From: Arthrobacter sp. B3I9
Lineage (GTDB): Bacteria > Actinomycetota > Actinomycetes > Actinomycetales > Micrococcaceae
Assembly (NCBI RefSeq): GCF_030816935.1
Contig: NZ_JAUSYO010000001.1
Span: forward strand, 4,030,001-4,094,000
Direction of reading: 5' to 3'
Length of the DNA: 64,000 bases
This document shows positions 49,659-64,000 of this stretch, piece by piece (within the stretch, counting starts at the first letter, position 1; the number at the start of each line of letters is the position of its first letter). The position numbers and the translations under genes were made by a program. The notes below the pieces were generated by a model. It worked only from the letters and a program-made list of their open reading frames with translations. It was not told the origin of the DNA and made no database searches.

Positions 49659-49689
49659 TCACATTGTGGACCTAAATCCACGATGTGGA
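49659..49689. promoter_or_regulatory. putative IclR operator (site A) before CoA-transferase gene
   Basis: TCACATTGTGGA, six bases, then TCCACGATGTGGA form an imperfect inverted repeat. It lies 105-135 bases before the CoA-transferase start and overlaps the last codons of the IclR gene. The half-site CCACGATGTGG recurs at 50596-50606. Confidence 0.6.
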
Positions 49690-50469
49690 TAGAGGGGTGG
49701 TCGGGATCGTTCCCCCGATGACTCGTGTCGATTCTTCAGCGGCCGCAAGGACGGGCTCGACCCATGAGGCACAGACGTCGTACGGCATCCGCAGGGCCGG
49801 GCCCATGACGGTGAGCGCCCCGTACAGTTCGGCCTGCGGTCCGAAGATCGGCGCGGAGATCCCGCTCGCACCCGAGACGCGCTCGCCCGTGGTGATGGCG
49901 AAACCGTCCGCCCGGGTCTTGGCGACGGCGGTCTCCAGGCTTGCGGCGTCCGTGATCGTCCGGGCGGTCAACGAGTGGAGCCCGGAGCGGTAGATCTGCT
50001 CCGCCACGTCAGGGTTCCAGGCGAGGAGGACACGTCCGGCCGCCCCCACGTGGAGCGGCATGATCTCACCCACCTGCACCACCCTGCGGAGCATGCGCCG
50101 GGTTTCCGCCAGCGCTATGCACACCCGGCTCCCCTGCGATTGGCGGAAGATGCACGCCGTCTCACCCAGCTCATCACGAAGGTGCCGCAGCACGGGGGTG
50201 AGCAGTTCGAGGTAGTCGAGACCCTGGCTGGCCGGGGCCGCCCAATGGGCCATCCGGACGCCGACCCGAAACTTGTCCCCCTGGCGGTCCAGAATGCCCT
50301 CCTGCACCATGTTCGCCACGAGGCGCTGCACGGTCGAGTGGGGAATGCCGGTAGCGCCACGAAGTTCGGCCAGGGAAAGCTCCGGCTGGGCAAGCGAAAA
50401 AGCGTCCAGGATGGAGGTGATTTTTCGAAGAACCAGCAACGGCGTGGCCGGGGATTCGGTGGGCGTCAT
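49672..50469 (-). CDS. IclR family regulator of the CoA-transferase/ABC module
   Basis: A 265-residue regulator. The helix-turn-helix (LAELRGATGIPHSTVQRLVANM, about 33-54) and the effector domain (PLHVGAAGRVLLAWNPDVAEQ, GFAITTGERVSGASGISAPIFG) are clear. It lies between the CoA-transferase operon and the divergent ABC importer. A repeated CCACATCRTGG palindrome lies before both, so it is the likely regulator of the whole module. Confidence 0.9.
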   Translation of the reverse strand: MTPTESPATPLLVLRKITSILDAFSLAQPELSLAELRGATGIPHSTVQRLVANMVQEGILDRQGDKFRVGVRMAHWAAPASQGLDYLELLTPVLRHLRDELGETACIFRQSQGSRVCIALAETRRMLRRVVQVGEIMPLHVGAAGRVLLAWNPDVAEQIYRSGLHSLTARTITDAASLETAVAKTRADGFAITTGERVSGASGISAPIFGPQAELYGALTVMGPALRMPYDVCASWVEPVLAAAEESTRVIGGTIPTTPLSTSWI

Positions 50470-50576
50470 GGAGAAAGTGTAAGAGCCTGCGGACGGGGCG
50501 CAGGCGCCGCTGGTGCGGCGCCGTCATGCTACCGCCCGGACGTTGAGTGTGACCCGGGTTACTGTTACCATCGGGT

Positions 50577-50606
50577 CCACATCATGGTGGCGAACCCACG
50601 ATGTGG
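50577..50606. promoter_or_regulatory. putative IclR operator (site B) before ABC importer
   Basis: CCACATCATGG (50577-50587) and CCACGATGTGG (50596-50606) form an inverted repeat with an eight-base centre, in the divergent promoter region between the IclR gene and the importer. Confidence 0.65.
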
Positions 50607-50661
50607 CAGGTAGGACCCGATGCGTCAGAGCCGACGCAATGGGCGTGGAGACGACAGACCC

Positions 50662-51567
50662 ATGTCGACCCCCGTAAGGATCAGCAGCGAAAACAAGCGG
50701 CCAGCGACGGCCGGGAAGAGTGCAATGATGCCAGCTGCAAAGGCAGAAACGTCAACGTACGCGGTGGAGCTCACCGGGTGCACCAAACAGTTCCCGACGC
50801 CCGGCGGTGAGACCTACTTCGCCGTCCGCGACATCAACCTCAAAGTTGAGCCTGGCCGGTTTGTTTCAATTGTTGGCCCCACGGGATCAGGCAAATCCAC
50901 CATCCTCAACATGGCCGCGGGACTGCTGAACCCGAGCGCCGGCGAAGTCAAGAGCTTTGGCGAGCCGGTGATCGGAGTGAACCGGCGGGCCTCCTACATG
51001 TTCCAGCAGGACCCCCTGCTGCCGTGGAAGACAGTGATCGACAACGTCAGCCTCGGCTTGACGATGGCCGGTGTGTCAAAGGCTGAAGCCCACTCGGAAG
51101 CGCGCCGGTGGTTAGAGAAGGTGGGACTCAAGAACTTTGCGGACCGCTACCCGCACCAACTCAGCGGCGGGATGCGGAAACGCACGGCCATCGCGCAGGC
51201 CTGGATTGTCAACCCGGACGTGCTGCTCATGGACGAACCGTTTTCCGCACTCGATGTCCAGACCCGTCAGATCATGGAAAACGAGCTCCTTCAGCTGTGG
51301 CAGGAATCCGGCAAGGCCGTCGTCTTCATCACCCATGACCTGGACGAGGCCATCGCCCTTTCCGACGAGGTAGTGATCCTCGGGGCCGGCCCCGGAAGCA
51401 CGGTCGTGGGAAGCTACGAAATCGACATCCCGCGCCCCCGGGACCTGCTGGACATCCGCGATGACCCGCAGTTCGTCACCCTGCACCGCGAGATCTGGGG
51501 CCGCTTGAAGCTCGAAGTGTCGAAGACCTACGAAACCGCCATGGCGGAAGAAGGTGAAGTCGCATGA
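50662..51567 (+). CDS. ABC transporter ATP-binding protein, nitrate/sulfonate/taurine family
   Basis: ATPase of a NitT/TauT-type importer. Walker A GPTGSGKST, Q-loop FQQDPLLPWKT, signature LSGGMRKRTAIA, Walker B VLLMDEPFSALD and H-loop ITHD are all present. About 300 residues from ATG 50662; ATG 50620 and ATG 50725 are alternatives, since the first 35 residues look poorly conserved and a GGAAGAG precedes 50725. The stop overlaps the permease start. Confidence 0.9.
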   Translation: MSTPVRISSENKRPATAGKSAMMPAAKAETSTYAVELTGCTKQFPTPGGETYFAVRDINLKVEPGRFVSIVGPTGSGKSTILNMAAGLLNPSAGEVKSFGEPVIGVNRRASYMFQQDPLLPWKTVIDNVSLGLTMAGVSKAEAHSEARRWLEKVGLKNFADRYPHQLSGGMRKRTAIAQAWIVNPDVLLMDEPFSALDVQTRQIMENELLQLWQESGKAVVFITHDLDEAIALSDEVVILGAGPGSTVVGSYEIDIPRPRDLLDIRDDPQFVTLHREIWGRLKLEVSKTYETAMAEEGEVA

Positions 51568-52409
51568 CTCTGCTGGAATCGAACAAGAACGGCCTCTCGG
51601 CGGCGTTGAACGGCGGCTCGCGCCGACGGACGCGCAGAACGGAGATGTCCCCGCTGGCGATGCGGAGCACGCAGCTGTTGCTCACCCTCGCCGTCCTCGG
51701 CGCCTGGGAGCTTTCCGTCCGCGCCGGAATAGTGGATGAATTTTTCTTCCCGCTTCCGTCGGACATCTTCCAGACCGTCTGGCTGTGGGTCTCGACCGGG
51801 TTCGTCTTTCCACATCTGTGGATCACTATGCAGGAAGCCATCCTCGCCTTCCTCGTCGGCGCCGCCGCGGGCCTGCTCCTGGGCTTCGTCCTCGCCCGGG
51901 TGCGTTTCCTCGAGCGCCTGCTGGACCCGTTCCTGCAGATGTTCAACGCCCTCCCCCGCGTGGTGCTGGCACCGATCTTCCTGCTGTGGTTCGGCCTCGG
52001 GATCTGGTCCAAGGTCGCCTTCGGCTTCACGCTCGTGTTCTTCATCGTCTTCTTCAACACCCTCGAAGGCGTCAAGAGCGTTGACCGCGTCCTCGTGGAC
52101 AACGCACGGATGCTGGGGGCATCCGAGAAGCAGCTCCTCCGCCATGTCTTCATCCCCAGCGCCCTGACGTGGATCTTCTCCAGCCTGCACATCAGCGTGG
52201 GCTTCGCCATCACGGGCGCCGTGGTGGGTGAATACCTCGGAGCCTCCGCCGGTGTCGGTTATGCCATCGCCCAGGCACAGGGAGTCTTCGACACAAAGGG
52301 TGTCTTCGCCGGGATGTTCATCCTGATGATCGTGGTCCTCATTATCGACCTCCTCGTCAACCGCCTGGAACGGCACCTGCTCCGCTGGCGGCCTGTCCAG
52401 TCGTCCTAG
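51564..52409 (+). CDS. ABC transporter permease, nitrate/sulfonate/taurine family
   Basis: Membrane subunit, 281 residues, six helices. The EAA loop reads VDNARMLGASEKQLLRHVFI (about 177-196). Its ATG overlaps the ATPase stop by four bases. Sulfonates, nitrate, aliphatic amides or pyrimidine precursors are transported by relatives; here the substrate is more likely the organic acid handled by the adjacent CoA-transferase. Confidence 0.9.
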   Translation: MTLLESNKNGLSAALNGGSRRRTRRTEMSPLAMRSTQLLLTLAVLGAWELSVRAGIVDEFFFPLPSDIFQTVWLWVSTGFVFPHLWITMQEAILAFLVGAAAGLLLGFVLARVRFLERLLDPFLQMFNALPRVVLAPIFLLWFGLGIWSKVAFGFTLVFFIVFFNTLEGVKSVDRVLVDNARMLGASEKQLLRHVFIPSALTWIFSSLHISVGFAITGAVVGEYLGASAGVGYAIAQAQGVFDTKGVFAGMFILMIVVLIIDLLVNRLERHLLRWRPVQSS

Positions 52410-52511
52410 CCAAGCCTCTTTGTACCGGCCGTCCGGCCTGCCTTATCCATCCACGCGTCCGGCGTTTCCGGGCCCGAACGAATCCACTACTACCGCTTAG
52501 AAGGGCCACCG

Positions 52512-53591
52512 ATGACACAGAACGAATCCCGGCCAAGGCGCAGGAGCATCCTCCGGCCGGTCACCCTTGTTGCCTCCATTGCGCTGGCCCTTTCCGCCTG
52601 CGGCACTCCGGCGGCGGCGCCTCCCGGCCAGTCCGGCAGCGCCGCGGCCGGCGGTGGCAGCAGTTCCAAGGTGACCATCGGCGTCGGCGGCCAGACCCTG
52701 CTGACCTACCTCCCGACTACGCTTGCCCAGCAACTGGGCTATTACCAGGAGGAGGGCGTGACCGTCGAGCTCCAGGACCTGCAGGGCGGCTCGAAGGCAC
52801 TGACGGCCATGATCGGCGGCAGCACCAATGTGACCAGCGGGTACTACGAGCACACCATCCAGATGCAGGCCAAGAACCAGAAAATCAAGGCCTTTGTGGA
52901 TATGGGAAGGTCCTCCGGCCTGGTGCTGCTGGTCGCCCCCAAGAATGAGGGCACGATCAAGACCCTCGCGGACCTCAAGGGCAAAAACGTGGGCGTGACG
53001 GCCCCTGGCTCCTCCACGGACATGTTCATCAAGTACCTCCTCGCAAAGAGCGGCATGCAGAAGACCGACGCCGCAGTCTCGGCCATCGGCGCCGGCTCCT
53101 CGGCGGTTGCGGCCATGGAACAGGGCCAGGTTGATGCCGCCGTCATGCTCGAACCGGACGTGTCCGTACTGAGCAAGCGCATCGGACATGATCCGGTGAT
53201 CCTCGAGGACGTCCGTTCCGCCGACGGACTCAAGGAAGTTTTCGAGACAGACGCGTGGCCGTCCTCCAGCCTCTACGCCAAGACCGAGTGGCTGGACGCG
53301 AACAAGGAAACGGCCGGCAAGCTCGCCAAGGCCATAAAGCGGACCCTGGAATTCATCGACGGACACTCCGGCGAGGAGATCGCCGCCAAGATGCCCGAGA
53401 ATTACGCCGGCGGGGACAAGGCCCTTTACGCCAAGGTGATCGAGGACCTGAAGAAGACCCTCAGCAAGGACGGAACCTTCACGGAGAACGGCGTGCAGGC
53501 GGTGCTGAAGACCCAGCAGGTGGCCAACCCGGAGGTCGGAGACAAGGAGATCCAGCTGGCCGATACGTACACAAATGAGTTTGTGAAGTAG
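52512..53591 (+). CDS. ABC substrate-binding lipoprotein, NitT/TauT (NMT1-like) family
   Basis: A 359-residue binding protein. The signal peptide has a lipobox ending ALSAC (Cys30), then a short Ala/Gly-rich linker. The SsuA/NMT1-like fold follows (about 50-345: TYLPTTLAQQLGYYQEEGV, DLKGKNVGVTAPGSSTDMF, QGQVDAAVMLEPD). It is the third gene of the importer operon, 102 bases after the permease gene, and a terminator follows. Confidence 0.9.
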   Translation: MTQNESRPRRRSILRPVTLVASIALALSACGTPAAAPPGQSGSAAAGGGSSSKVTIGVGGQTLLTYLPTTLAQQLGYYQEEGVTVELQDLQGGSKALTAMIGGSTNVTSGYYEHTIQMQAKNQKIKAFVDMGRSSGLVLLVAPKNEGTIKTLADLKGKNVGVTAPGSSTDMFIKYLLAKSGMQKTDAAVSAIGAGSSAVAAMEQGQVDAAVMLEPDVSVLSKRIGHDPVILEDVRSADGLKEVFETDAWPSSSLYAKTEWLDANKETAGKLAKAIKRTLEFIDGHSGEEIAAKMPENYAGGDKALYAKVIEDLKKTLSKDGTFTENGVQAVLKTQQVANPEVGDKEIQLADTYTNEFVK

Positions 53592-53613
53592 AACCGAGCC
53601 CGGCAGTTCCAGA

Positions 53614-53652
53614 GGCCCGCCATCCGGAGACGGGTGGCGGGCCCTTGCTGTT
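53614..53652 (+). terminator. terminator after ABC importer operon
   Basis: A 13-bp stem (GGCCCGCCATCCG with CGGGTGGCGGGCC, one G-T pair) with loop GAGA, then CTTGCTGTTT. The T stretch is weak but the position 22 bases after the stop fits. Confidence 0.7.
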
Positions 53653-53756
53653 TCTGGCGCTGGCGGCTCCTTCACACGGCGGTGTAATTGCCGTTGAGGC
53701 AGTGCAGGAGCTCCATACTGGTGGGGATGTATACAACAGCCAGTTCAAGACGATGA

Positions 53757-54941
53757 ATGATTGACCAACTCGGCCGCCGATCGACGATCGCCCTCCTGAT
53801 CCATTCCGCGCTGATCCAGGCAGTCACATTCCTGGTCCGGCCGGCCGCCACCTACCGTGCGCTGGAGCTCGACGTTCCGGATTTCGCCCTCGGCCTGCTT
53901 GCGGCCAGTTACGCCGTCTTTCCCCTGCTCCTGGCGATTCCCACCGGCGGCCTTGTGGACCGCCTGGGCGAGCGCCGGCTCATGGCCGCCGGGTCCGCCG
54001 TCGTCCTTTGCAGTTCCTCTTTCCTCCTGCTTTGGGGAACGTCCGTTACATCCCTCGTCATCGGCACGGCGCTGCTGGGTGCCGGACAGTTGGCGTGCGT
54101 GGTGGGTCAGCAGGCAGTGGTGGCCAACAACGCCTCGGCGTCCCGCCTGGATTCGGCCTTCGGTTATCTGACGTTTGCCGCATCCCTGGGGCAGGCACTG
54201 GGGCCGCTGGCAATTTCCGTCGTCGCCGGCACTTCCGTCCGCCCCGATACCCAGGCGATCTTCGGGCTGGCCGCCGGCATGAGCGCGGCGCTCTTCGCCG
54301 GCACCTTCGCCGTATCCGCGAAGCCGGGCGGCAGGACGCGAACGGTCAAGGCGTCCGGGCGAAGCGGGGGCACCGTGTCGCTGCTGCGGACGCCGGGCGT
54401 GGTGCGGGCCCTGGCAACGAGTGCGACAGTCCTGGCCGTCGTCGACCTCACCGTGGTGTATCTCCCCGCGCTCGGCACTGAGCGCGGCCTCACTGCAGCC
54501 ACTGTGGGCTTGATGCTCGCGGTCCGGGCCGTCTTCTCCATGGCCTCGCGGCTGGGGCTGGGCAGAATGTCCCGGAAGCTGGGGCGGACGCGCCTGCTGG
54601 TAACCAGCCTTGCCATCTCCACCTTCGCTCTGGCGGTGGCCGCAATTCCCATGCCGGTCTGGCTGCTGTTCGTCGTGATGGCAGCGCTGGGGCTCGGCCT
54701 GGGCATCGGCCAGCCGCTGACTATGTCGTGGCTTTCCGCGCAAGCACCCGATGGGCAGCGGGGGCGGGCCCTGGCCCTCCGGCTCGCCGGCAACCGGGCG
54801 GGGCAGGTGGTCCTTCCCAGCGCCATCGGAGGCGTGGCCGCGGGCCTGGGAGCGGCCGGCGTGTTCCTGGCTTCGGCCCTGGCTGTAGGCGGAACGCTCC
54901 TGCTGGTGCGCGGCGTACGCCTGGACGACCAGGACTCCTAG
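53757..54941 (+). CDS. MFS transporter
   Basis: A 394-residue major facilitator with twelve hydrophobic spans. The loop 2-3 motif (GGLVDRLGERRLMAAGSA, about 62-79) is present; the substrate cannot be told. It sits between the ABC importer and the aromatic cluster, in the same direction as both, and could belong to either. ATG 53757 is used; an ATG four bases earlier is out of frame. Confidence 0.88.
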   Translation: MIDQLGRRSTIALLIHSALIQAVTFLVRPAATYRALELDVPDFALGLLAASYAVFPLLLAIPTGGLVDRLGERRLMAAGSAVVLCSSSFLLLWGTSVTSLVIGTALLGAGQLACVVGQQAVVANNASASRLDSAFGYLTFAASLGQALGPLAISVVAGTSVRPDTQAIFGLAAGMSAALFAGTFAVSAKPGGRTRTVKASGRSGGTVSLLRTPGVVRALATSATVLAVVDLTVVYLPALGTERGLTAATVGLMLAVRAVFSMASRLGLGRMSRKLGRTRLLVTSLAISTFALAVAAIPMPVWLLFVVMAALGLGLGIGQPLTMSWLSAQAPDGQRGRALALRLAGNRAGQVVLPSAIGGVAAGLGAAGVFLASALAVGGTLLLVRGVRLDDQDS

Positions 54942-55130
54942 CGGTCTCCCTATGAAGGATCCGGGCGACGGGACCGAACCCGCCCACTGGCAAGCTTCCG
55001 TGGACCTGCCGAGGAGGTGTCACTGCAGCGCAATCCACTGTCGTATCCGTGCACTTCCTACCTCCGTGACGTTCGGACGACTACGGCGCTGTTACCATCA
55101 CATTCAGGCAGCTCAAGGAGGATGTTTGCC

Positions 55131-56117
55131 ATGGTTCACGCGACGCCGGGGGAACATGCCTCTCTTGCGTTCCCCGCTGTCGCCTCAAAGGCCCCGGAGG
55201 CTACCTGGAGCGAGACAGTCGAACGCTCACTACTCAGCTTCGATTTTGACTTCGATAAGCACCGTACGTTTCACGGGTCCGTGCAGAGCAAACCCTTCGC
55301 TGACATCGAATTCATCGACTTGAGCAGCGGCCGTCACGCCGCTTATCGCGACGAGTCCAAGATCCGCGCGGAAGACCGACCGGACTACTTGATGACTCTG
55401 CAACTCTCGGGGGAATTCCGTCTGACGCAGGACGGCAGAACTGCTGTGCTCAGGCCCGGGGAGTTCGCCTTCTACGATTCGACCAAACCAGCCACGGCGA
55501 TTAGCAGCGACGACTACCGTTCGCTCTGCGTCAAGTTTCCGAAGAAGCTTCTCCGGTCGCTAGGCGACACACTCGCTGAACGGACCGCCACGCGACTTGA
55601 CGCGGACGCCGGCCTGTCACCCTCGGTATGGGCGCTCCTGAGCACCCTCAATGCGACGGCGGACTCAGTTACAAATGTCAACCGCCATTCGACGGTCCGA
55701 GGCATCATGGGGCTGGTCGGCTCCATGTTGACCAGCCAGTCCGGCACCACCAACCCCCGCCGGCAAATCGAAACCCGCGACTCCCTGCTGGAACAGATCG
55801 GCAACTACATCGACGACAACCTGGGCAACCCGGAACTGGACCCGCAGGAAATCGCCCGTGCGCACTTCATCTCCGTCCGGCACCTGCACAGCTTGTTCCA
55901 CGACGCTGGCCTCAGCGTTTCGGCTTGCATCAGGGACCGGCGGGTGGAGCGGTGCAGCAGTGATCTCGCCGACCCGCTACTCCTCAACGTGCCCGTTGCG
56001 TCAATCGCACGTCGGTGGGGCTTCAAAGGCGCTTCGCATTTTGGTCAGATATTCAAGGCTGCGACCGGATTTACCCCTGCGGATTTCCGCCAGATGGCGC
56101 TGAAGGAAACCAGCTAG
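55131..56117 (+). CDS. AraC family regulator of aromatic cluster
   Basis: A 328-residue activator-type protein. The N-terminal AraC_binding_2-like sensor domain (about 45-190; DYLMTLQLSGEFRLTQDGR) is followed by a C-terminal double helix-turn-helix (ELDPQEIARAHFISVRHLHSLF and VPVASIARRWGFKGASHFGQIF). Relatives such as ThcR, NphR and FeaR control monooxygenase and amine-degrading operons. ATG 55131 has AAGGAGG nine bases before it. It precedes the catabolic genes by about 210 bases in the same direction. Confidence 0.88.
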   Translation: MVHATPGEHASLAFPAVASKAPEATWSETVERSLLSFDFDFDKHRTFHGSVQSKPFADIEFIDLSSGRHAAYRDESKIRAEDRPDYLMTLQLSGEFRLTQDGRTAVLRPGEFAFYDSTKPATAISSDDYRSLCVKFPKKLLRSLGDTLAERTATRLDADAGLSPSVWALLSTLNATADSVTNVNRHSTVRGIMGLVGSMLTSQSGTTNPRRQIETRDSLLEQIGNYIDDNLGNPELDPQEIARAHFISVRHLHSLFHDAGLSVSACIRDRRVERCSSDLADPLLLNVPVASIARRWGFKGASHFGQIFKAATGFTPADFRQMALKETS

Positions 56118-56242
56118 GCCCTGCCTGAGCGTGCGCCGGCTGCGGCCCGAAACGGATTCGCATGCCGGGGAAATGGTCCATATCCAGCTGCCGTCACGTC
56201 TCCTATGCCAAGGTTGCGCGCATTCGACAGTCACCGGCACTC

Positions 56243-56278
56243 TCACGCTATTTAAGTGACGTGAAACACACGTACGGT
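56243..56278 (+). promoter_or_regulatory. weak promoter/activator-site candidate before catabolic operon
   Basis: TCAC and GTGA half-sites (56243-56246, 56256-56259) flank an AT-rich centre, followed by a TANNNT-type box TACGGT (56273-56278) without a good -35. That fits an activator-dependent promoter. The leader 56118-56328 shows no gene. Confidence 0.3.
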
Positions 56279-56328
56279 AAAGCCAGCCCCAGAAATTCGG
56301 GTTACACGAGATGTCAAAGGAGACACCC

Positions 56329-57282
56329 ATGGCCTACATTGAAGGCTCGCACCACGTGACGCTGTCAGTCGGCAACGCCCAGGAAGACGTGGACTTCCAC
56401 GTTAAAACCTTGGGAATGCGCTTCATCAAGCGCACGGTACTTTTCGACGGCAGCACGCCGATCTACCACCTGTACTACTCCAACGCCAACGGCGACCCCT
56501 CCTCCGTTGTCACCACCTTTCCTTGGGCGCAGGCCGGGCTCTACGGCAAGCGCGGCACCAACCAGGCCCGCGAAGTCCTGCTGTCAGTTCCCTCCACCTC
56601 GTTGGACTTCTGGCACCAGCGCCTCAACGAGCACAAGGTCGACGTCCAGAACATCGAGGTGTTCGACCAGCGCCGGCTGGCGTTCCGCCACCCCTCTGGA
56701 ATCGAATACGTCTTCGTGGGCAACGACGGCGACGAGCGCGAAGGCTTCGCGGGCAACGGTGTACCGGAAGAGCACGCCATCCACGGGATCCACGGCGTCG
56801 GCATCCATGTCACCACTCCGGAACGGATGGTCGACTTCGCCAACGACACGTTTTTCTCCCAGGGCAACCTCGCCGAGGAGGGAGACCGGGCCGTTTTCCA
56901 GATCGGCAATGCCAAGCACGGGAACCACGTCGAGTTGACCGCCAACATCTCCGAGGATCAGGGCACGTGGCACTACGGTTCGGGCACTTACCACCACTTC
57001 GCCTGGAACCTGGACACGTTGAAGAACCAGGACGAGGCCAAGTTCGGAATCGAAGGCGCCGGCTACACGGACATCTCCGAGCTCAAGGACCGCAAGTACT
57101 TCAAGAGCGTCTACGTCCGCAGCCCCGGCGGCGCGCTGTTCGAACTCGCCGTCACCCACGACGACGGCGGCTGGGACTGCGATGAATCCCCGCAGGAACT
57201 CGGCACCCGCTTTCAGCTCCCCGAGCAGTTCGAACACCAGCGCACCCAGATCTTTGAGCAGCTCGAGCACATCGACATCTAA
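56329..57282 (+). CDS. VOC-family ring-cleaving dioxygenase, MhqO/LinE-like
   Basis: A 317-residue non-heme iron enzyme with two vicinal-oxygen-chelate modules (about 4-130 and 150-280). SHHVTLSVGNAQEDVDFHVKTLGM and HLYYSN open the first; HHFAWNLD and SPGGALFELAV in the second carry the usual His and Glu metal ligands. The overall pattern resembles hydroquinone-specific dioxygenases (MhqO, LinE-type) more than catechol 2,3-dioxygenase. ATG 56329 follows AAAGGAG; the six codons before it are not used. It is the first catabolic gene of the cluster. Confidence 0.78.
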   Translation: MAYIEGSHHVTLSVGNAQEDVDFHVKTLGMRFIKRTVLFDGSTPIYHLYYSNANGDPSSVVTTFPWAQAGLYGKRGTNQAREVLLSVPSTSLDFWHQRLNEHKVDVQNIEVFDQRRLAFRHPSGIEYVFVGNDGDEREGFAGNGVPEEHAIHGIHGVGIHVTTPERMVDFANDTFFSQGNLAEEGDRAVFQIGNAKHGNHVELTANISEDQGTWHYGSGTYHHFAWNLDTLKNQDEAKFGIEGAGYTDISELKDRKYFKSVYVRSPGGALFELAVTHDDGGWDCDESPQELGTRFQLPEQFEHQRTQIFEQLEHIDI

Positions 57283-57312
57283 CGGCTCATTACGCAAAAG
57301 GAAACCAGTCCC

Positions 57313-58503
57313 GTGAGTGAACAGACGATCACAGCATCATCCCGCCTCCATGTCAGCAATGAATTTGACGCCCTCCTGGAGCGCCTGGACGCGATCACCC
57401 CCTTGCTGAAAGCCAACGCCGACGCGAATGAAGCCGGCGGAAGGCTCACCCCCGAAGTCGAAGCGGCGCTGCTCGACTCCGGCGCTTACCGCGTCGGAAT
57501 CCCGGAAAACCTGGGCGGCTACGAGTTTTCGCCGCGCCAGGTTATAGAAACCATCGAAAAGATCTCCTACGCCGACGCCTCCGCTGGCTGGGTCTTCATG
57601 GCACTGCAGATGATCACCGGAACCACTGCCGCATGGCTCCCCGAAGAAGCCACCCAGGAGCTGTTCGCCGGGGACAACCACGCCTTGATCGCCGGACAAG
57701 GGACGCGGTTGGGAACAGCAGCGAAGGTCGACGGCGGCTATCGCCTCTCCGGCTCCTGGTCCTTCGCCTCCGGCATGCACCAGGCCACCCACATCCACAC
57801 CGCTGCCTTTTGCCCGGATACGAACCAGGCCCTGGTCTTTACGCTCCCCAAGGAACAGGCAACGCTGATCGACAACTGGGACGTCATGGGCCTGAAGGCC
57901 ACGGGCAGCATCGACTACGTGATCGAGGACGTCTTTGTCCCGGACAGCTTCACCTACGAGGTCTCGATCATGGATGCCCTCAACGGCGGCGCCATCTACC
58001 ATCTGGGGCTCGCCAACATGTCGGGTATCTGCCACACCGGGTGGGCCCTGGGCGTGGCGCGCAGGCTGCTGGACGAGATGAAGGAACTGGCCGGCAAGAA
58101 GACGGGAGCTCCCGGGGCCACCGTCGATACGGACCAGTTCCATGCGGCGTACGCGAAGGCGGAAGCAACGCTGCGTTCGGCCCGCGCCTGGACCATGGAG
58201 GTCTGGGCGGACAACGAGGCGACCCTGGACAGGGGCGAGCTGCTTTCCACCGAACAGGAGACGCTCACCCGTCTCGCCCTGAACAACGTCACATGGTCAG
58301 CCCATGAGGTCACCATGGCGGTCTACAAGTGGGCCGCCACCGCGGCCCTTCGCTCGGGAGACATCCAGCGGTTCTTCCGCGACATGCACGCCGGCACGCA
58401 GCACGTTACCTCCGGCCCGGTGGTCCTGCAGAACTGCGGACGGCAGCTCGCCGGACTCGCGCCGAACGCGCGCTGGGTCTTCCTGGATCTCCAGGACCAG
58501 TAG
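57313..58503 (+). CDS. flavin-dependent monooxygenase, acyl-CoA dehydrogenase fold (group D)
   Basis: A 396-residue protein of the HsaA/HpaB-like branch, which hydroxylates phenols using reduced flavin from a separate reductase. Typical parts: YRVGIPENLGGYEFSPRQV, GWVFMALQMITG, DGGYRLSGSWSFASG and WDVMGLKATGSIDYVIEDVFVPD. The partner reductase is the next gene, 76 bases on. GTG start at 57313 is preceded by AAAAGGAA. The natural substrate is unknown; indole or other hydroxylations are possible in this family. Confidence 0.85.
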   Translation: MSEQTITASSRLHVSNEFDALLERLDAITPLLKANADANEAGGRLTPEVEAALLDSGAYRVGIPENLGGYEFSPRQVIETIEKISYADASAGWVFMALQMITGTTAAWLPEEATQELFAGDNHALIAGQGTRLGTAAKVDGGYRLSGSWSFASGMHQATHIHTAAFCPDTNQALVFTLPKEQATLIDNWDVMGLKATGSIDYVIEDVFVPDSFTYEVSIMDALNGGAIYHLGLANMSGICHTGWALGVARRLLDEMKELAGKKTGAPGATVDTDQFHAAYAKAEATLRSARAWTMEVWADNEATLDRGELLSTEQETLTRLALNNVTWSAHEVTMAVYKWAATAALRSGDIQRFFRDMHAGTQHVTSGPVVLQNCGRQLAGLAPNARWVFLDLQDQ

Positions 58504-58579
58504 GACCACACCTCGTCACACCGTCCGCGCGTGCCGGCTGCAGCGGCTGCCGGCACACGCGCAACAACCAGGAGCAATC

Positions 58580-59164
58580 GTGTCCACCACGTCACCCACT
58601 TCCCATTCCGCACGCCTCAGCGAGGAAATTACCGAAGGTCATTTCGAACAGACGCTGACCGCAGATGACTTCAAAGAGGCTTTCCGAAACCACCCGGCCG
58701 GCGTTTCCGTCGTGACCGCGGACCCCGGAGACGGGCCCGTCGGGCTGACGGCCACGTCCGTCTTCTCCGTCTCGACCACCCCGCCGCTGCTGGTCTTTTC
58801 CCTGTCGGGCCGCTCGTCTTCAGCTCCCGCGCTACGCCGGGCTGACACCGTCGTCGTCCATCTCCTCGGCGCTGACCAGATCGGCCTGGCCAAAACGTTC
58901 TCCACCTCCGGCATCGACCGCTTCGCTGACAGCAGCATATGGACCCGGCTGGTCACAGGAGAGCCTGTGCTTCCCACCGCCAATGCATGGCTCCGGGGCA
59001 GAATCGTCAACCAGATGGAGGCCGGGGACTCGACGGTCGTCGCCGTCCAGGTCCTGCAGGTCAAAATCCCCGACGCCGAGTCCCGCCCGGCCGGCCAGTC
59101 CCATCCGCTGGTTTACCACAACCGCACGTGGCACCAGCTCAGCGACAGCTCAGTGATGCCCTGA
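58580..59164 (+). CDS. flavin reductase, partner of group D monooxygenase
   Basis: Supplies reduced FAD or FMN to the monooxygenase. 194 residues with the flavin-reductase fold: FKEAFRNHPAGVSVVTA and GLTATSVFSVSTTPPLLVFS carry the FMN-binding signature. GTG 58580 has AGGAG eight bases before it; the open frame before it overlaps the monooxygenase and is not used. Order and spacing match HpaB/HpaC or HsaA/HsaB pairs. Confidence 0.88.
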   Translation: MSTTSPTSHSARLSEEITEGHFEQTLTADDFKEAFRNHPAGVSVVTADPGDGPVGLTATSVFSVSTTPPLLVFSLSGRSSSAPALRRADTVVVHLLGADQIGLAKTFSTSGIDRFADSSIWTRLVTGEPVLPTANAWLRGRIVNQMEAGDSTVVAVQVLQVKIPDAESRPAGQSHPLVYHNRTWHQLSDSSVMP

Positions 59165-59192
59165 TGTCGATTCCGACTCCGAAGGAATAGCG

Positions 59193-59843
59193 ATGCCGCC
59201 CAATCCCCATCTTGCCCAGGAACCGATGCTCCAGGGGGCGCCCCCCGAAGCCGCGAACCTCACCGTCTACGCCGTTCACGGCCGTGGCCAATCCCCCGCA
59301 TTCATGGCGGAACTGGCGGACCGCATTGGTCTTCCCGACATCGCTTATCTGCTTCCCGCCGCCCATGATTCGAGCTGGTATCCAGCCGGTTTCATGGAAC
59401 CGCTCGATCAGAACCAGCCCAATCTTGACCACGCCCTGGAGGCCGTCGGGCACCACCTTGAGCGGCTCGCCGGGCAAGGTGCCCCGAAAGAGTCGGTTGT
59501 GCTGCTGGGCTTCTCCCAAGGAGCCTGCCTGCTTTCGGAATTCCTCCTGCGCAACCAGCACCAATACGCGGCCGTCGTGCTTCACACTGGCGGCTACCTT
59601 GGCCCCGTCGAACACGGCTGGCCGGAAAACGGCGGGCTGGACGGCGTCCCCGTGTTGATGGCCTCCTCGGCCAAAGATACGTGGGTTCCTCTGCCCCGCA
59701 TCGAAGCGACGGCCACAGCCCTGGCCAAGGCGGGCGCCGCCGTCGAGCTTCACACCTACGACGACGCCGAGCACCACATCAACGATGATTCGGTTGCCCG
59801 GATCCGCAAACTGCTCACCAGCCTTATGACAAAGGAGTCCTGA
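59193..59843 (+). CDS. carboxylesterase/phospholipase-type alpha/beta hydrolase
   Basis: A 216-residue serine hydrolase. The nucleophile elbow is GFSQGACLL (about 108-116); the acid lies in SSAKDTWVP and the base in DDAEHHIND, giving a full triad. The family includes MhqD, which is associated with quinone or hydroquinone metabolism in Bacillus, next to MhqO-type dioxygenase. It may split an ester or a ring-cleavage product. The start follows GAAGGA. Confidence 0.82.
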   Translation: MPPNPHLAQEPMLQGAPPEAANLTVYAVHGRGQSPAFMAELADRIGLPDIAYLLPAAHDSSWYPAGFMEPLDQNQPNLDHALEAVGHHLERLAGQGAPKESVVLLGFSQGACLLSEFLLRNQHQYAAVVLHTGGYLGPVEHGWPENGGLDGVPVLMASSAKDTWVPLPRIEATATALAKAGAAVELHTYDDAEHHINDDSVARIRKLLTSLMTKES

Positions 59844-59844
59844 C

Positions 59845-60852
59845 ATGCCTTCCACCGCCCCTCATCTCATTGACAGCCCACTCGTCACGTCCCGACGCGG
59901 TCATTTCTGGATTCCCGGGGAGCGGGTCGCGACGCCGGGGGGTACGGTTCAGCGTGCTCCCATGTTCGTGGCCTGGGAAGCGCCGGAGAACATCACCCAG
60001 CCCCATCCGCTGGTGCTGGTGCACGGCGGCGGCGGGCAAGGAACCGATTGGACGGGCACACCCGACGGCCGGCCGGGGTGGGCGCAACGTTTCCTCGAAG
60101 CCGGCTTCGCCGTCTACATCGTCGACCGGCCCGCCCACGGCCGCTCCCCCTACCACCCGGATGTCGTGGGGCCCATGGGCGGCGCCTTCCCCTATGAAGC
60201 CGCCGCAGGCTTGTTCCTGCCGGAAGAAGCGGCCGGCTCACAGACGCAATGGGGTTATGACCGGGAAATCGGTTCGGCGGACATTGACCAGCTGGTCGCC
60301 GCCATGGGCCCGCTACCGGCGGACCTGGCCGAATCGCAGGCGATGGACGGTGATCGGCTTGCAAGGCTGCTCGACCGGATCGGTCCGGCGATCATCGTGA
60401 CACACTCCGCGGGCGGTCCGGCAGGCTGGCTCGTGGCCGATGCGCGTCCCGAACTTGTTGTGGGCATCGTGGCAGTGGAACCAATCGGCCCTGCATTCGC
60501 CGATTTCCCGGGCCTGGGCAGCCTCTCCTGGGGACTCACGGCAACCCCCATGAGCTATGTGCCGTCACAGGCAACCCCGGAAGAGCTGCAGAGTGCCGAC
60601 CCCGGATCCCTGCGGCTGCCGGCGCTGAAGGGCAAGCCGATCGCCGTCATTACCGGCAGCGCCTCGGGATTCGCCGGGTTCGCGCCAGACGTCGTCGATT
60701 TCTTGACCACGGCAGGCGCCGATGCAGAATGGCTCCACCTGAAGGAATTCGGTATCGAGGGCAACGGCCACGGCCTCATCTTCGAATCCAATTCCGATGA
60801 CACCATCAAGCCCGTCATCGCATGGATCGAAGCACACTGGCCGCGGTCATGA
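59845..60852 (+). CDS. alpha/beta fold hydrolase
   Basis: A 335-residue hydrolase. It has the oxyanion region HGGGGQGTDW (about 55-64), VDRPAHGRSP (about 93-102) and the nucleophile elbow VTHSAGGPA (about 188-196). A histidine near the C-terminus (GNGHGLIFESN) likely completes the triad. A roughly 70-residue insert with PMGGAFPYEAAAGLF separates strand and elbow. Start overlaps by one base spacing with the preceding stop (AAAGGAG upstream), and its own stop overlaps the next gene by four bases, so it is part of the operon. Confidence 0.8.
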   Translation: MPSTAPHLIDSPLVTSRRGHFWIPGERVATPGGTVQRAPMFVAWEAPENITQPHPLVLVHGGGGQGTDWTGTPDGRPGWAQRFLEAGFAVYIVDRPAHGRSPYHPDVVGPMGGAFPYEAAAGLFLPEEAAGSQTQWGYDREIGSADIDQLVAAMGPLPADLAESQAMDGDRLARLLDRIGPAIIVTHSAGGPAGWLVADARPELVVGIVAVEPIGPAFADFPGLGSLSWGLTATPMSYVPSQATPEELQSADPGSLRLPALKGKPIAVITGSASGFAGFAPDVVDFLTTAGADAEWLHLKEFGIEGNGHGLIFESNSDDTIKPVIAWIEAHWPRS

Positions 60853-62615
60853 GCGATTCCGACGTCGTTGAAACCGATGTGCTGATTGTCGGTTCCGGAC
60901 CTGCAGGCGCATCAGCCGCGTTGTTTCTCTCCTCGCTGGGTGTGCAGAACATGATGGTCACGAAGTACCGGTGGACGGCCAACACCCCGCGCGCCCACAT
61001 CACGAACCAGCGGACCATGGAGATCTTCCGGGACGTGGGCATCGAGGAACAGGTGCTCGCCGAGGCAACACCGCACGCGATGATCGGCGACACGGTCTTC
61101 TGCACCTCCATCGCCGGCGAAGAGATTGGCCGCATTCTGACGTGGGGAAACCATCCAGCCCGCCACGCCGACTACGAGCTTGCTTCGCCCTCGTTGAACT
61201 GTGACATCCCCCAGACTTACCTGGAGCCGATCCTTGTCCGGAACGCCACCGTACGCGGAACGCAGACGCAGTTCTCCACCGAGTATCTCCTCCATACCCA
61301 GGACCCGGACGGAGTCACCGTCCGGGTCCTGGACCGGGTCACCGGCAACGAATACAGCATCCGTGCCAAGTACCTGATTGGCGCGGACGGCGCCCGGTCC
61401 AAGGTCGCGGCGGACATCCAATTGCCCTACGAGGGCCGGATGGACATTGCCGGGTCGATGAACATCACGTTCAAGGCGGACATCACGGAACTGGTGGGGC
61501 ACCGCCCCTCGGTCCTGTACTGGGTGATCCAGCCGGGGTCGAACATCGGAGGCATCGGCGCCGGCCTGGTACGCATGGTCCGGCCCTGGAACGAATGGTT
61601 GATCGTCTGGGGTTACGACATCACCAAAGAACCCCCGGAAGTGACCGACGACGCTGCCACGGAGATAGTCCGCAACCTGATCGGGCTCCCGGATCTCGAG
61701 GTGGAAATCACGGGCACGTCGCTCTGGGGAAACAACGAACAGTATGCCACCGAACTGCGGTCCGGGCGGGTGTTCTGCGCAGGGGACGCCGTGCACAAGC
61801 ACCCGCCCAGCAACGGGCTGGGTTCCAACTCTTCCATCCAGGACTCATACAATCTGGCATGGAAACTGGCCGCTGTCCTCAGCGGACAAGCGGGCGAGGA
61901 GCTTCTGGACAGCTACAGTGCGGAACGGGCACCGGTGGCCAGGCAGATAGTGCTGCGCGCCAACCAGTCCGGCCGCGAGTTCGGCCAGCTGTTCCAAGCG
62001 CTCGGAATCGACGGGGCGGAATCAGCCGAGGAAATGCGCGCCCTGATCGAGTCGCGCAAGGACAACAGCCCCGCAGGCGCAGCCAAGCGCGCGGCCGTCC
62101 AGGAAGCGATGGAACTCAAGAACTACGAGTTCAACGCCCACGGCGTGGAACTTGGCCAGCACTACGTCTCAACGGCCGTGGTCGGGGACGGCAGCACCAA
62201 GCCGGCACCGTCCCGCGACCCCGAGCTGTACTACGAGCCCTCCACCTACCCCGGAGTGCGGCTACCCCACGCGTGGGTTGGCGACAATAACAAAAAGCAC
62301 TCCACCCACGACCTGGCGGCCTACGACCAGTTCACGCTCTTCACCGGCATTACCGGCGAGGACTGGGCCACCGCTGCCCGGAAGGTCAGCGATCAGCTTG
62401 GCGTGAAGGTAAAGGCAGTGGTGATCGGACCTGGCCGTGACGTCACCGACCTCTATTTCGACTGGGCGAAACTGCGCGGCGTCGAAGAAGACGGGGCGGT
62501 CCTGGTGCGGCCGGACAAACACGTCGGCTGGCGTGCCGCCCGCTTGCCTGAAAATCCTGAAACCGCCCTCCGGGACGCCATGTCCGCCATCCTGAATCGA
62601 GGCACGCCAGCGTGA
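60849..62615 (+). CDS. FAD-dependent monooxygenase, TfdB/resorcinol hydroxylase-like
   Basis: A 588-residue class A phenol hydroxylase. It has FAD-binding GSGPAGASAALFLSSLG (about 17-33), the second FAD motif GRVFCAGDAVHKHPPSNGLGSN (about 309-330), and a C-terminal thioredoxin-like domain. It resembles 2,4-dichlorophenol hydroxylase (TfdB) and the Corynebacterium glutamicum resorcinol hydroxylase. Followed directly by maleylacetate reductase and hydroxyquinol dioxygenase, it most likely turns a resorcinol-type compound into hydroxyquinol. Confidence 0.85.
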   Translation: MSDSDVVETDVLIVGSGPAGASAALFLSSLGVQNMMVTKYRWTANTPRAHITNQRTMEIFRDVGIEEQVLAEATPHAMIGDTVFCTSIAGEEIGRILTWGNHPARHADYELASPSLNCDIPQTYLEPILVRNATVRGTQTQFSTEYLLHTQDPDGVTVRVLDRVTGNEYSIRAKYLIGADGARSKVAADIQLPYEGRMDIAGSMNITFKADITELVGHRPSVLYWVIQPGSNIGGIGAGLVRMVRPWNEWLIVWGYDITKEPPEVTDDAATEIVRNLIGLPDLEVEITGTSLWGNNEQYATELRSGRVFCAGDAVHKHPPSNGLGSNSSIQDSYNLAWKLAAVLSGQAGEELLDSYSAERAPVARQIVLRANQSGREFGQLFQALGIDGAESAEEMRALIESRKDNSPAGAAKRAAVQEAMELKNYEFNAHGVELGQHYVSTAVVGDGSTKPAPSRDPELYYEPSTYPGVRLPHAWVGDNNKKHSTHDLAAYDQFTLFTGITGEDWATAARKVSDQLGVKVKAVVIGPGRDVTDLYFDWAKLRGVEEDGAVLVRPDKHVGWRAARLPENPETALRDAMSAILNRGTPA

Positions 62616-63676
62616 GCCTGAACTTTAACCACGTCACCCTGGGCCAGCGGGTCCTTTTTGGCTCCGGGAAGGCTGCCGAGAACCTCGCGGCCGAGGTCGA
62701 GCGCTTGGGTGCCAGGACTGTGATGGTCATCGCCTCTGCGTCCGAGGAACAGGCCGCCCGGGGCGTCACTGCGGGTATAACCGTGGCATTACAGTACGAC
62801 GACGTCGCCCCGCACGTGCCGCTCGAGAAGGCCGAAAAGGCCCGCGCGGCCGCCGCCGGGCATCACGTCGACCTGATCGTATGCGTCGGCGGGGGTTCGA
62901 CGACGGGCCTGGCCAAAGCCATTGCATTGACCTCCGGCCTGCCAATCATTGCTGTCCCCACCACCTATGCCGGGTCCGAGGCCACCAATGTGTGGGGCAT
63001 GACGGAATCATCCCGCAAAACCACCGGCGTGGACGACGTGGTCCTTCCCGTCACGGTGATTTATGACGCCGAACTCACGCTCTCGCTGCCTGCGGAACTC
63101 TCCGTGGCCTCCGGCTTGAACGCCCTGGCCCACTGCGTGGACTCCATGTGGGCTCCACGGGCAGACCCGATCAACAGTGCCCTCGCTGCGGAAGGCATCC
63201 GTGCACTCTGCGAGGGCCTGCCGGCAGTCAAGGCAGACCCTGCCGGGTTGGAGGCACGGGAACAGGCCCTGTACGGGGCCTACCTCGCCGCGGTCGCCTT
63301 CTCGTCGGCCGGATCCGGGATGCACCACAAGATCTGCCACGTCCTGGGCGGGGCCTACAACCTGCCGCATGCCCAGACGCATGCCACCGTACTTCCCTAC
63401 GTGCTTGCGTTCAACGCACCCCGCGCGCCCGAAGCCGCAACACGCATAGCGGCTGCCTTCGGCGCGGCGGACGCCGTCACCGGGCTGAACCGGCTGCGGG
63501 GCGTGCTTGACGCGCCGAAAGCCCTGAAAGGCTTCGGCATGGCCGAACATGCCATCGGCGAAGCCGTGGAGCTCATCCTCCCCGTCATTCCCGACTCCAA
63601 CCCCAGGCAGGTCACGGCCGAGAACCTCACCGAGCTGATCACTGCCGCCTACTTCGGCACCACGCCGGGCCTCTAG
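62612..63676 (+). CDS. maleylacetate reductase
   Basis: Reduces maleylacetate to 3-oxoadipate with NAD(P)H, after hydroxyquinol ring cleavage. 354 residues of the iron-alcohol-dehydrogenase superfamily, with [17 protein letters not shown] (about 90-106), [17 protein letters not shown] (about 172-188) and [20 protein letters not shown] (about 233-252), the maleylacetate reductase signature. GTG start overlaps the previous stop (GTGA). Order as in the C. glutamicum resorcinol cluster. Confidence 0.92.
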
Positions 63677-63689
63677 AAAGACAACACAC

Positions 63690-64000
63690 ATGACCAGTAC
63701 TATCCCCTCCGCAGTTTCCGCCGAGCAGGAAGCAGTTGAACAGCAGCTCGTCGACGCCGTCGTAGCTTCATTCGACAACACCGAAGATCCGAGGCTGCGC
63801 CAGCTTATGCAGGCCCTCACCAAGCACCTCCACGCCTTCATCCGCGAAGTACGCCTCACCGACGACGAGTGGAACAGTGCGATCCGGTTCCTCGCCGAAG
63901 CCGGGCACATCACTGACGACCAGCGCCAGGAATTCATTCTCCTCTCGGATGTCCTCGGGGCATCCATGCAGACCATCGCCGTGAACAACCAGGCCTACCG
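63690..64000 (+). CDS. hydroxyquinol 1,2-dioxygenase, N-terminal part (runs off the right edge)
   Basis: About 103 residues visible, without a stop before the window end. They match the N-terminal helical domain of intradiol dioxygenases ([43 protein letters not shown]). The iron-binding Tyr/His domain lies outside the window. Following maleylacetate reductase by 13 bases, it is the ortho-cleavage enzyme for hydroxyquinol; catechol 1,2-dioxygenase is the alternative. Confidence 0.88.

Follow-up and report, generated by a model that had tools for sequence, protein, structure and literature searches.

Near the 3' end of the window analysed here (64,000 nucleotides, positions 4,030,001-4,094,000 of the 4.12-Mb single-contig genome of Arthrobacter sp. 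B3I9) there begins a run of genes probably concerned with the degradation of aromatic compounds, which extends on the + strand from 55,017 past the end of the window and comprises, according to the open reading frame (ORF) map and Pfam, a gene for an AraC-family regulator, a gap of 211 bases and then eight co-directional genes. The interpretation put forward here, whose chances of being correct we regard as evenly balanced, is that this is one AraC-controlled operon through which meta-oxygenated phenols would be converted to maleylacetate and thence to 3-oxoadipate, using two outlets for ring opening that would be served by a single maleylacetate reductase (MAR).

Genes of the operon and their identities

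The genes, in order, are as follows, with the evidence for each given in brackets:

55017..56117, + strand: AraC-family regulator, AraC_binding_2 plus HTH_18 (Pfam; start codon uncertain)
56329..57282, + strand: VOC, a p-hydroquinone ring-cleaving dioxygenase of PcpA/LinE/MhqO type (PDB matches, aligned residues)
57313..58503, + strand: GrpD, oxygenase component of a group D (two-component) flavin monooxygenase with the Acyl-CoA_dh_2 fold (Pfam, NCBIfam, PDB relatives)
58580..59164 (about), + strand: FlvR, flavin reductase that presumably serves GrpD (PF01613, 1.4e-34; GTG start behind AGGAG, read from the sequence)
59193..59843, + strand: AbhA, serine hydrolase of carboxylesterase/phospholipase type, Abhydrolase_2 (PF02230; PDB 4h0c, 3.4e-34)
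59845..60852, + strand: AbhB, serine esterase related to esterase 713 and SulE (4q34; 1qlw, which is esterase 713; SulE entries)
60849..62615, + strand: HbpA, single-component FAD phenol hydroxylase of HbpA/TfdB type (PF01494 and PF21274; PDB matches)
62612..63676, + strand: MAR, maleylacetate reductase, Fe-ADH (3iv7, 3e-141; maleylacetate reductases 3w5s and 3hl0)
63690..64000, + strand: HQD, hydroxyquinol 1,2-dioxygenase, N-terminal 103 amino acids in the window (PF04444)

An initial annotation of this stretch had already described a co-directional run of aromatic genes, and all those it named do lie on the + strand where it had placed them, or close by, with Pfam support; FlvR, which it had not itemised, is also present. 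The junctions are operon-like, AbhA and AbhB being 1 base apart while HbpA and MAR have GTGA in common, and because AbhB and HbpA likewise share ATGA, what might be called the first and second halves of the run join in an overlapping start and stop. HQD is truncated by the window end, and its full gene (301 amino acids) lies in the surrounding genome (L003:15691-16596; loci and genomes are cited by L and G numbers). An SDR gene (- strand) and a LysR gene (+ strand) are also situated beyond the window. The AraC regulator is probably the activator of the operon; in L003-L008 and L049 its gene lies 5' of VOC and is co-directional with it, and in L009, L011, L014, L056, L057 and L073 it precedes the run in divergent orientation.

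The best PDB match of VOC is 4huz (2,6-dichloro-p-hydroquinone 1,2-dioxygenase, PcpA; 9.5e-61 over residues 9-318 of 323), to which it is closer than to the next match, MhqO (3oaj, 9e-44), and it is 38% identical to LinE. The positions aligned with H10, H11, T13, H226, H227, R259, Y266 and E276 of PcpA are invariant in all 34 distinct sequences compared, LinE of UT26 included; in PcpA they include His, His and Glu as ligands of Fe(II), and Thr, His, Arg and Tyr as residues of the second shell. Given the full-length relationship and the conserved ligand positions, VOC is, as judged from its sequence, a hydroquinone dioxygenase of the PcpA/LinE type (type I). The one, indirect, pointer to actual p-hydroquinone opening by VOC would be its 85% identical relative in Arthrobacter nitrophenolicus SJCon, a strain reported to cleave chlorohydroquinone.

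GrpD has Rv3094c, HsaA and C2-HPAH as its relatives in the PDB comparison, and falls below the NCBIfam cut-offs for HsaA (136.9 of 450 bits) and HPAH-C2 (106.2 of 650 bits), so that on sequence comparison it would be placed in the HsaA/HPAH superfamily without being either of those enzymes. Its tree has long branches, and the alphaproteobacterial rows may be falsely joined with L089. A two-component resorcinol hydroxylase is known in GraD/GraA. Within 16 kb of GrpD, in 24 GrpD rows, the hydrolase found is AbhB in 11, a 260-amino-acid type in 5 and an HSL-type enzyme in 4, with none of the three in the remaining 4. Despite these three hydrolase families, a Baeyer-Villiger role for GrpD together with an esterase, yielding phenols from aryl ketones, was dropped as a candidate; we know of no group D enzyme with Baeyer-Villiger activity.

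In both hydrolases the presumed catalytic triad is invariant (Ser, Asp, His in 29 of 29 distinct sequences for AbhA; Ser, Glu, His in 15 of 15 for AbhB), and the SulE entries among the PDB matches of AbhB are identified as such from PMC10356948. Among the five PDB matches of AbhA and the nine of AbhB (E≤0.001) there is no C-C hydrolase acting on meta-cleavage products, of the BphD/MhpC/HsaD kind.

For the last three genes, the suggestion in the initial annotation that they form a resorcinol-type module holds. HbpA matches 2-hydroxybiphenyl 3-monooxygenase (4cy6, 7e-189) and 2,4-dichlorophenol 6-monooxygenase (6u0p, 3e-146) and is probably, by its sequence relationships, a resorcinol-type hydroxylase; MAR matches 3iv7 best, and the closest solved relative of full-length HQD is hydroxyquinol 1,2-dioxygenase 1tmx (8e-141). 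The three genes are contiguous, as in a module of the rol type, and this right half of the operon is very probably a relative of the Corynebacterium glutamicum rol operon and works like it. The hydroxylase, too, belongs to the rol operon. What is described there is MAR and hydroxyquinol dioxygenase together, with a route via 1,2,4-trihydroxybenzene (PMC7764795). The present operon differs in that the module is joined to VOC, a group D monooxygenase and two esterases, and in that its regulator is of the AraC family in place of RolR, the TetR-type repressor of rol.

Separable blocks and their distribution

Gene orders in other genomes were taken from tblastn or from record annotation (the ORF caller picks some antisense frames), the wide neighbourhoods being an author-selected part of the VOC and HbpA genomes. 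Among 295 genomes of the family, VOC has a match in 39 (20 at at least 61% identity), GrpD (E≤1e-60) in 10 and HbpA (E≤1e-150) in 32 (26 at at least 66%). Co-occurrence was counted over the 20, 10 and 26 genomes respectively, leaving out 19 of the 39 for VOC (32-35%) and 6 of the 32 for HbpA (44-49%), and these counts and the Fisher tests on them ignore kinship. HbpA is present in all ten GrpD genomes and VOC in six of them; this, together with the recurrence of the combination in Alphaproteobacteria, upholds the view that the gene set behaves as a unit. Independence of its two halves, which the initial annotation had named as a result that would refute its reading, is nevertheless seen in part and speaks partly against that reading. 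The halves are separate in many genomes, neither HbpA nor GrpD being found in 12 of the 20 VOC genomes and neither VOC nor GrpD in 14 of the 26 HbpA genomes, and in two draft genomes they lie on different large contigs (L072 and L051 in G136, L049 and L050 in G085); yet elsewhere the blocks are joined. In 394 genomes of the class, VOC (E≤1e-60) occurs in 3 and GrpD (E≤1e-110) in 4, the window's own counted in both, so that the set is rare and patchy.

AbhA lies no more than 3 kb from VOC in 25 of 26 distinct loci where VOC is at least 60% identical (29 rows minus three loci fetched twice), the exception being L063; in most Arthrobacter-type loci GrpD and FlvR lie between the two, and elsewhere VOC directly adjoins AbhA. 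All eight genes occur together in L003, L004 and L005. In five loci of 20 kb each (L059, L060, L064-L066), VOC-AbhA has MAR beside it while HbpA, GrpD and HQD are missing, and HbpA-MAR-HQD is found without VOC or GrpD in L050-L052, L054, L061 and L062. The two are convergent, with a single MAR in common and no GrpD, in L012 and L053 (more loosely in L013), and in Kocuria (L055) they are about 10 kb apart. A third arrangement has GrpD, FlvR and an HSL-type hydrolase followed by HbpA-MAR-HQD, contiguously in L045 and L046 and at distances of about 4 kb in L047 and about 10 kb in L048; the genomes of these four loci have no VOC match. In a metagenome-assembled genome (L006) that lacks HbpA at E≤1e-60, GrpD stands beside MAR-HQD. 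The neighbourhoods thus show separable blocks: VOC-AbhA, HbpA-MAR-HQD, and GrpD, FlvR and an esterase, which join either of the others.

The blocks also stand together in another actinobacterial family (L056, with MAR not found nearby) and on plasmids of Alphaproteobacteria. On Martelella and Rhizobium plasmids the identities are 37% for GrpD, 42-44% for FlvR, 29-34% for AbhA, 54-56% for HbpA, 40-42% for MAR, 37-45% for HQD and 42-44% for VOC, the gene orders differ, and AbhB is replaced by a 260-amino-acid hydrolase of another family (that of Martelella has no PDB relatives at E≤1e-15). That one gene set recurs here, rearranged and with identities of 29-56%, argues that it is a coherent unit. 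A Shinella region holds HbpA, HQD, VOC, AbhA and part of MAR, with a partial GrpD at the record end. On Agrobacterium plasmid pLN1-233332 (L074) the order is HQD-VOC-AbhA-MAR-hydrolase-GrpD-FlvR, with 4-base overlaps among the first four, and the 29 kb covered show no HbpA; in Roseicitreum the genes present are hydrolase-GrpD-FlvR, HQD and HbpA, with neither VOC nor MAR found in 21 kb; and Rhodococcus sp. USK10 (L086) has GrpD-MAR-HQD, FlvR, VOC and HbpA being undetected in 17 kb. Since GrpD precedes HQD in places without HbpA, and HbpA precedes HQD where GrpD is lacking, the two hydroxylases appear to offer alternative ways in. The VOC block is self-contained on pACHL02 of Pseudarthrobacter chlorophenolicus A6, a plasmid typed as conjugative, where the run (L073:10285-18361) is FAD monooxygenase-VOC (85%)-phospholipase-YceI-MAR-thiolase-CoA transferase A/B and resembles the SJCon locus (L009), in which VOC (85%), AbhA and MAR form a single run.

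Some further observations concern these regions and their surroundings. In Alphaproteobacteria, some of which are plant-derived, the set is accompanied by Liv-type ABC importers. In alphaproteobacterial L075, L076, L085 and L087 a gene for a zinc-type alcohol dehydrogenase lies directly 5' of the hydrolase-GrpD-FlvR trio, a position that hints at a natural substrate possibly taken in as an alcohol. Plasmid CP070278, labelled as from Dysgonomonadaceae bacterium zrk40, carries a GrpD 99.8% identical to that of Martelella, and as its size is 246,192 against 246,197 for the Martelella lutilitoris plasmid, the organism label looks doubtful. Upstream of the run in the window (49672-54941) lie an IclR regulator (- strand), followed by an ABC transporter of the NitT/TauT type and an MFS gene; these were considered as operon parts and rejected, since L004, the closest relative, does not have them in front of VOC. 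ABC ATPases of the same cluster (c0) as that transporter also occur near HbpA in several relatives, so the transporter may be linked, through uptake, to the resorcinol half.

A proposed route with two outlets

The substrates of the proposed operon would be resorcinol and its O-substituted relatives. In one outlet HbpA (perhaps also GrpD/FlvR) would hydroxylate a resorcinol-type phenol to hydroxyquinol, which HQD would open between the adjacent C-OH carbons to give maleylacetate. In the other, GrpD/FlvR would para-hydroxylate a phenol bearing some group X that is not OH, giving an X-hydroquinone closed to HQD; VOC would cleave this between C-OH and C-X to form acyl-X (an ester where X is alkoxy), and AbhA, whose proposed task is hydrolysis of the VOC product, would release maleylacetate. 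MAR would take maleylacetate from both, and AbhB would probably be an additional esterase, with a step that either precedes or follows that of GrpD. Two outlets would be needed because hydroxyquinol is an ortho-diol fit for HQD and an alkoxyhydroquinone is not. The gene identities, the conserved metal-ligand and triad positions and the linkage patterns are observed; we infer the substrates, the order of steps, the alkoxy nature of X and the convergence on maleylacetate, the last from linkage: since MAR accompanies VOC-AbhA where HbpA, GrpD and HQD are missing, the VOC-AbhA product should be a substrate of MAR, and since HbpA-MAR-HQD also stands alone, the same should apply to the product of the HbpA-HQD outlet. 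Locus L074, with both outlets and GrpD in a single overlapping operon, without HbpA, counts in favour, as do L012 and L053, in which the outlets have one MAR between them, the presence of GrpD beside MAR-HQD in the absence of HbpA (L086, L006) and the near-constant pairing of VOC with AbhA.

For the choice of X there are two published systems in which a hydrolase occupies the corresponding slot. LinE-like enzymes cleave chlorohydroquinone between C1 and C2, and in the mnp cluster of Cupriavidus the single-subunit LinE-like dioxygenase MnpC (42% identical to LinE) is proposed to convert aminohydroquinone to an amide, next to an acyl hydrolase (the putative amidase MnpE) and a putative MAR, MnpF (PMC5604080). 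The left half of the present operon works like mnp without being mnp: its hydrolase is a carboxylesterase, not an amidase, the second outlet (HbpA, HQD) is present, and neither an amidase nor a nitroreductase is among the operon genes (L081 does resemble an mnp-like locus). In Aspergillus niger, MhdA opens methoxyhydroquinone next to the OMe group to give a methyl ester, thought to be removed by an esterase, and a MAR homologue is suggested for reduction; strains deleted for omeA, the adjacent esterase gene, grow less well on vanillic acid and accumulate 4-oxo-monomethyl adipate (PMC8336404). That system differs in being fungal, in that MhdA is annotated as a homogentisate dioxygenase, not a VOC enzyme, and in that OmeA is placed after the reduction (PMC8336404). 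Because a carboxylesterase sits in the slot of MnpE or OmeA, the simplest reading is that X is alkoxy, and by this analogy an alkoxyhydroquinone substrate would be predicted. A purified hydroquinone dioxygenase of another strain is reported to turn over 2-methoxyhydroquinone, its rate being 59% of that with hydroquinone (PMC3222310), and SJCon is reported in a review to convert chlorohydroquinone (CHQ) to maleylacetate via CHQ dioxygenase (PMC3975901).

The more specific proposal that follows is a tentative one, and we would expect it to prove wrong rather oftener than right: that this is a bacterial route for alkoxyhydroquinones (such as lignin-derived methoxyhydroquinone) in which PcpA-type cleavage between C-OH and C-OR would yield a maleylacetate ester, a carboxylesterase would free the alcohol, and the ether would so be lost without a demethylase, the same MAR and perhaps the same hydroxylases also serving resorcinol, in a combination that seems to have been put together repeatedly, in Actinomycetota and in Alphaproteobacteria.

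Plain hydroquinone was also considered as the VOC substrate. Its ring-opening product would require an aldehyde dehydrogenase (ALDH). A single ALDH query of 40 loci, of which 26 contain VOC in full, gave no match closer to VOC than 6 kb in the stretches that these loci span, the only matches being in L058 (about 7 kb from VOC) and at the far end of L068; plain hydroquinone is therefore disfavoured and was dropped, although the ALDH may sit elsewhere in the genome, where PF00171 matches are plentiful among the matches listed.

Counter-evidence, rival readings and meaning

Several observations weigh against the two-outlet proposal. At the level of the enzymes, GrpD does not reach the function-specific cut-offs, no pathway step falls to AbhB by the available evidence, and the SJCon relative of VOC is only a candidate for the CHQ dioxygenase. 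The purified enzyme mentioned above cleaves methylhydroquinone at C-H, not at C-CH3 (PMC3222310), so that cleavage beside an alkoxy group is not given. The ALDH result comes from one query, and L074, a locus outside the 40, has a gene annotated as aldehyde dehydrogenase at a distance of about 4.5 kb from VOC. An AbhA-like esterase (28%) adjoins UT26 linE, whose acid chloride product should hydrolyse unaided, which means that a hydrolase beside this class of VOC is no proof of an ester intermediate; the idea that the hydrolase accompanies only non-halogenated substrates was rejected on this account. (On pCHQ1 of Sphingobium indicum UT26S, L080:5980-7493, an alpha/beta hydrolase and the AbhA-like esterase lie between linE and linD.) The lin/pcp branch resembles the present case in its VOC class and in the hydrolase neighbours of UT26 LinE, and differs in its chlorinated substrates, with a reductive dechlorinase. 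At the level of linkage, VOC has no AbhA in its vicinity in L063 and L081-L083 (VOC 39-44% in L081-L083; within about 4 kb of VOC there is an annotated amidase in L081 and an annotated alpha/beta hydrolase in L082 and L083), HbpA occurs without detected MAR or HQD in L069, L070 and L092, MAR was not found in L056 and L087, and GrpD occurs without HbpA in G583 (E≤1e-60) and in the metagenome-assembled genome L006.

The initial annotation, which is partly supported, had favoured a two-ring plant phenolic: GrpD and VOC would open one ring of a stilbenoid, chalcone, flavonoid or comparable compound, a hydrolase would free a resorcinol-type fragment, and HbpA-MAR-HQD would finish it, in a logic that the annotation likened to the Herbaspirillum fde route for flavonoids. 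This has in its favour the presence of HbpA in every GrpD genome of the family, the association of GrpD and some alpha/beta hydrolase with HbpA and HQD even without VOC (L045-L048, L087), and the recurrence of the set, together with Liv-type importers, in Alphaproteobacteria, some of them plant-derived. We nevertheless consider it unlikely. The supposed splitting of a two-ring carbon skeleton finds no counterpart in the hydrolases, AbhA being an Abhydrolase_2 carboxylesterase and AbhB grouping with esterase 713/SulE, neither resembling a C-C hydrolase; VOC belongs to a class whose known substrates are single-ring p-hydroquinones; the run has no gene for the other fragment (CoA ligase, hydratase-aldolase); and VOC-AbhA-MAR and HbpA-MAR-HQD each stand alone, a pattern to be expected of two funnels and not of successive reactions of a single compound. 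The unit can be accounted for without assuming a two-ring substrate. A further VOC-family protein, BxdG, occurs in the bxd benzoxazinoid cluster, with BxdA of the lactonase family (PMC11297187).

It could also be that only HbpA-MAR-HQD is catabolic, with VOC-AbhA (as MhqE/MhqD-like enzymes) and GrpD clearing toxic quinones that arise from hydroxyquinol or hydroquinones. VOC does match MhqO, and mhqRED of Staphylococcus aureus pairs a dioxygenase with an adjoining phospholipase/carboxylesterase under methylhydroquinone induction (PMC6798810); that, however, is a stress operon with a MarR-type repressor, for which the part of the source covered mentions no MAR or hydroxylase (PMC6798810). The regulator here is AraC, not MarR, VOC is closer to PcpA, and the MAR beside VOC-AbhA, with thiolase and CoA transferase on pACHL02, points to carbon use, so that we hold detoxification to be quite improbable. 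Less credible again is a chance fusion of two unrelated operons that have become neighbours in this lineage with only MAR in common: the unlinked halves in G085 and G136, and the 12 of 20 VOC genomes without HbpA or GrpD, would be as expected, but there is a start/stop overlap at the junction, and the blocks are together, in varied orders, in Micrococcaceae, in the family of L056 and on Rhizobium, Martelella and Shinella plasmids.

The whole operon would, in the two-outlet interpretation, be a new combination built from known kinds of module. In the titles and abstract openings found for methoxyhydroquinone and bacteria, some of which treat bacterial lignin use, no bacterial ring-opening route for methoxyhydroquinone is named, which does not imply that none is in print. 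If the interpretation is true, it explains why two unrelated ring-opening dioxygenases are found in a single operon, gives a catalytic role to the esterase found in the company of dioxygenases of the PcpA/LinE/MhqE type, and would provide a means of removing aryl ethers without a demethylase, of relevance to lignin conversion.

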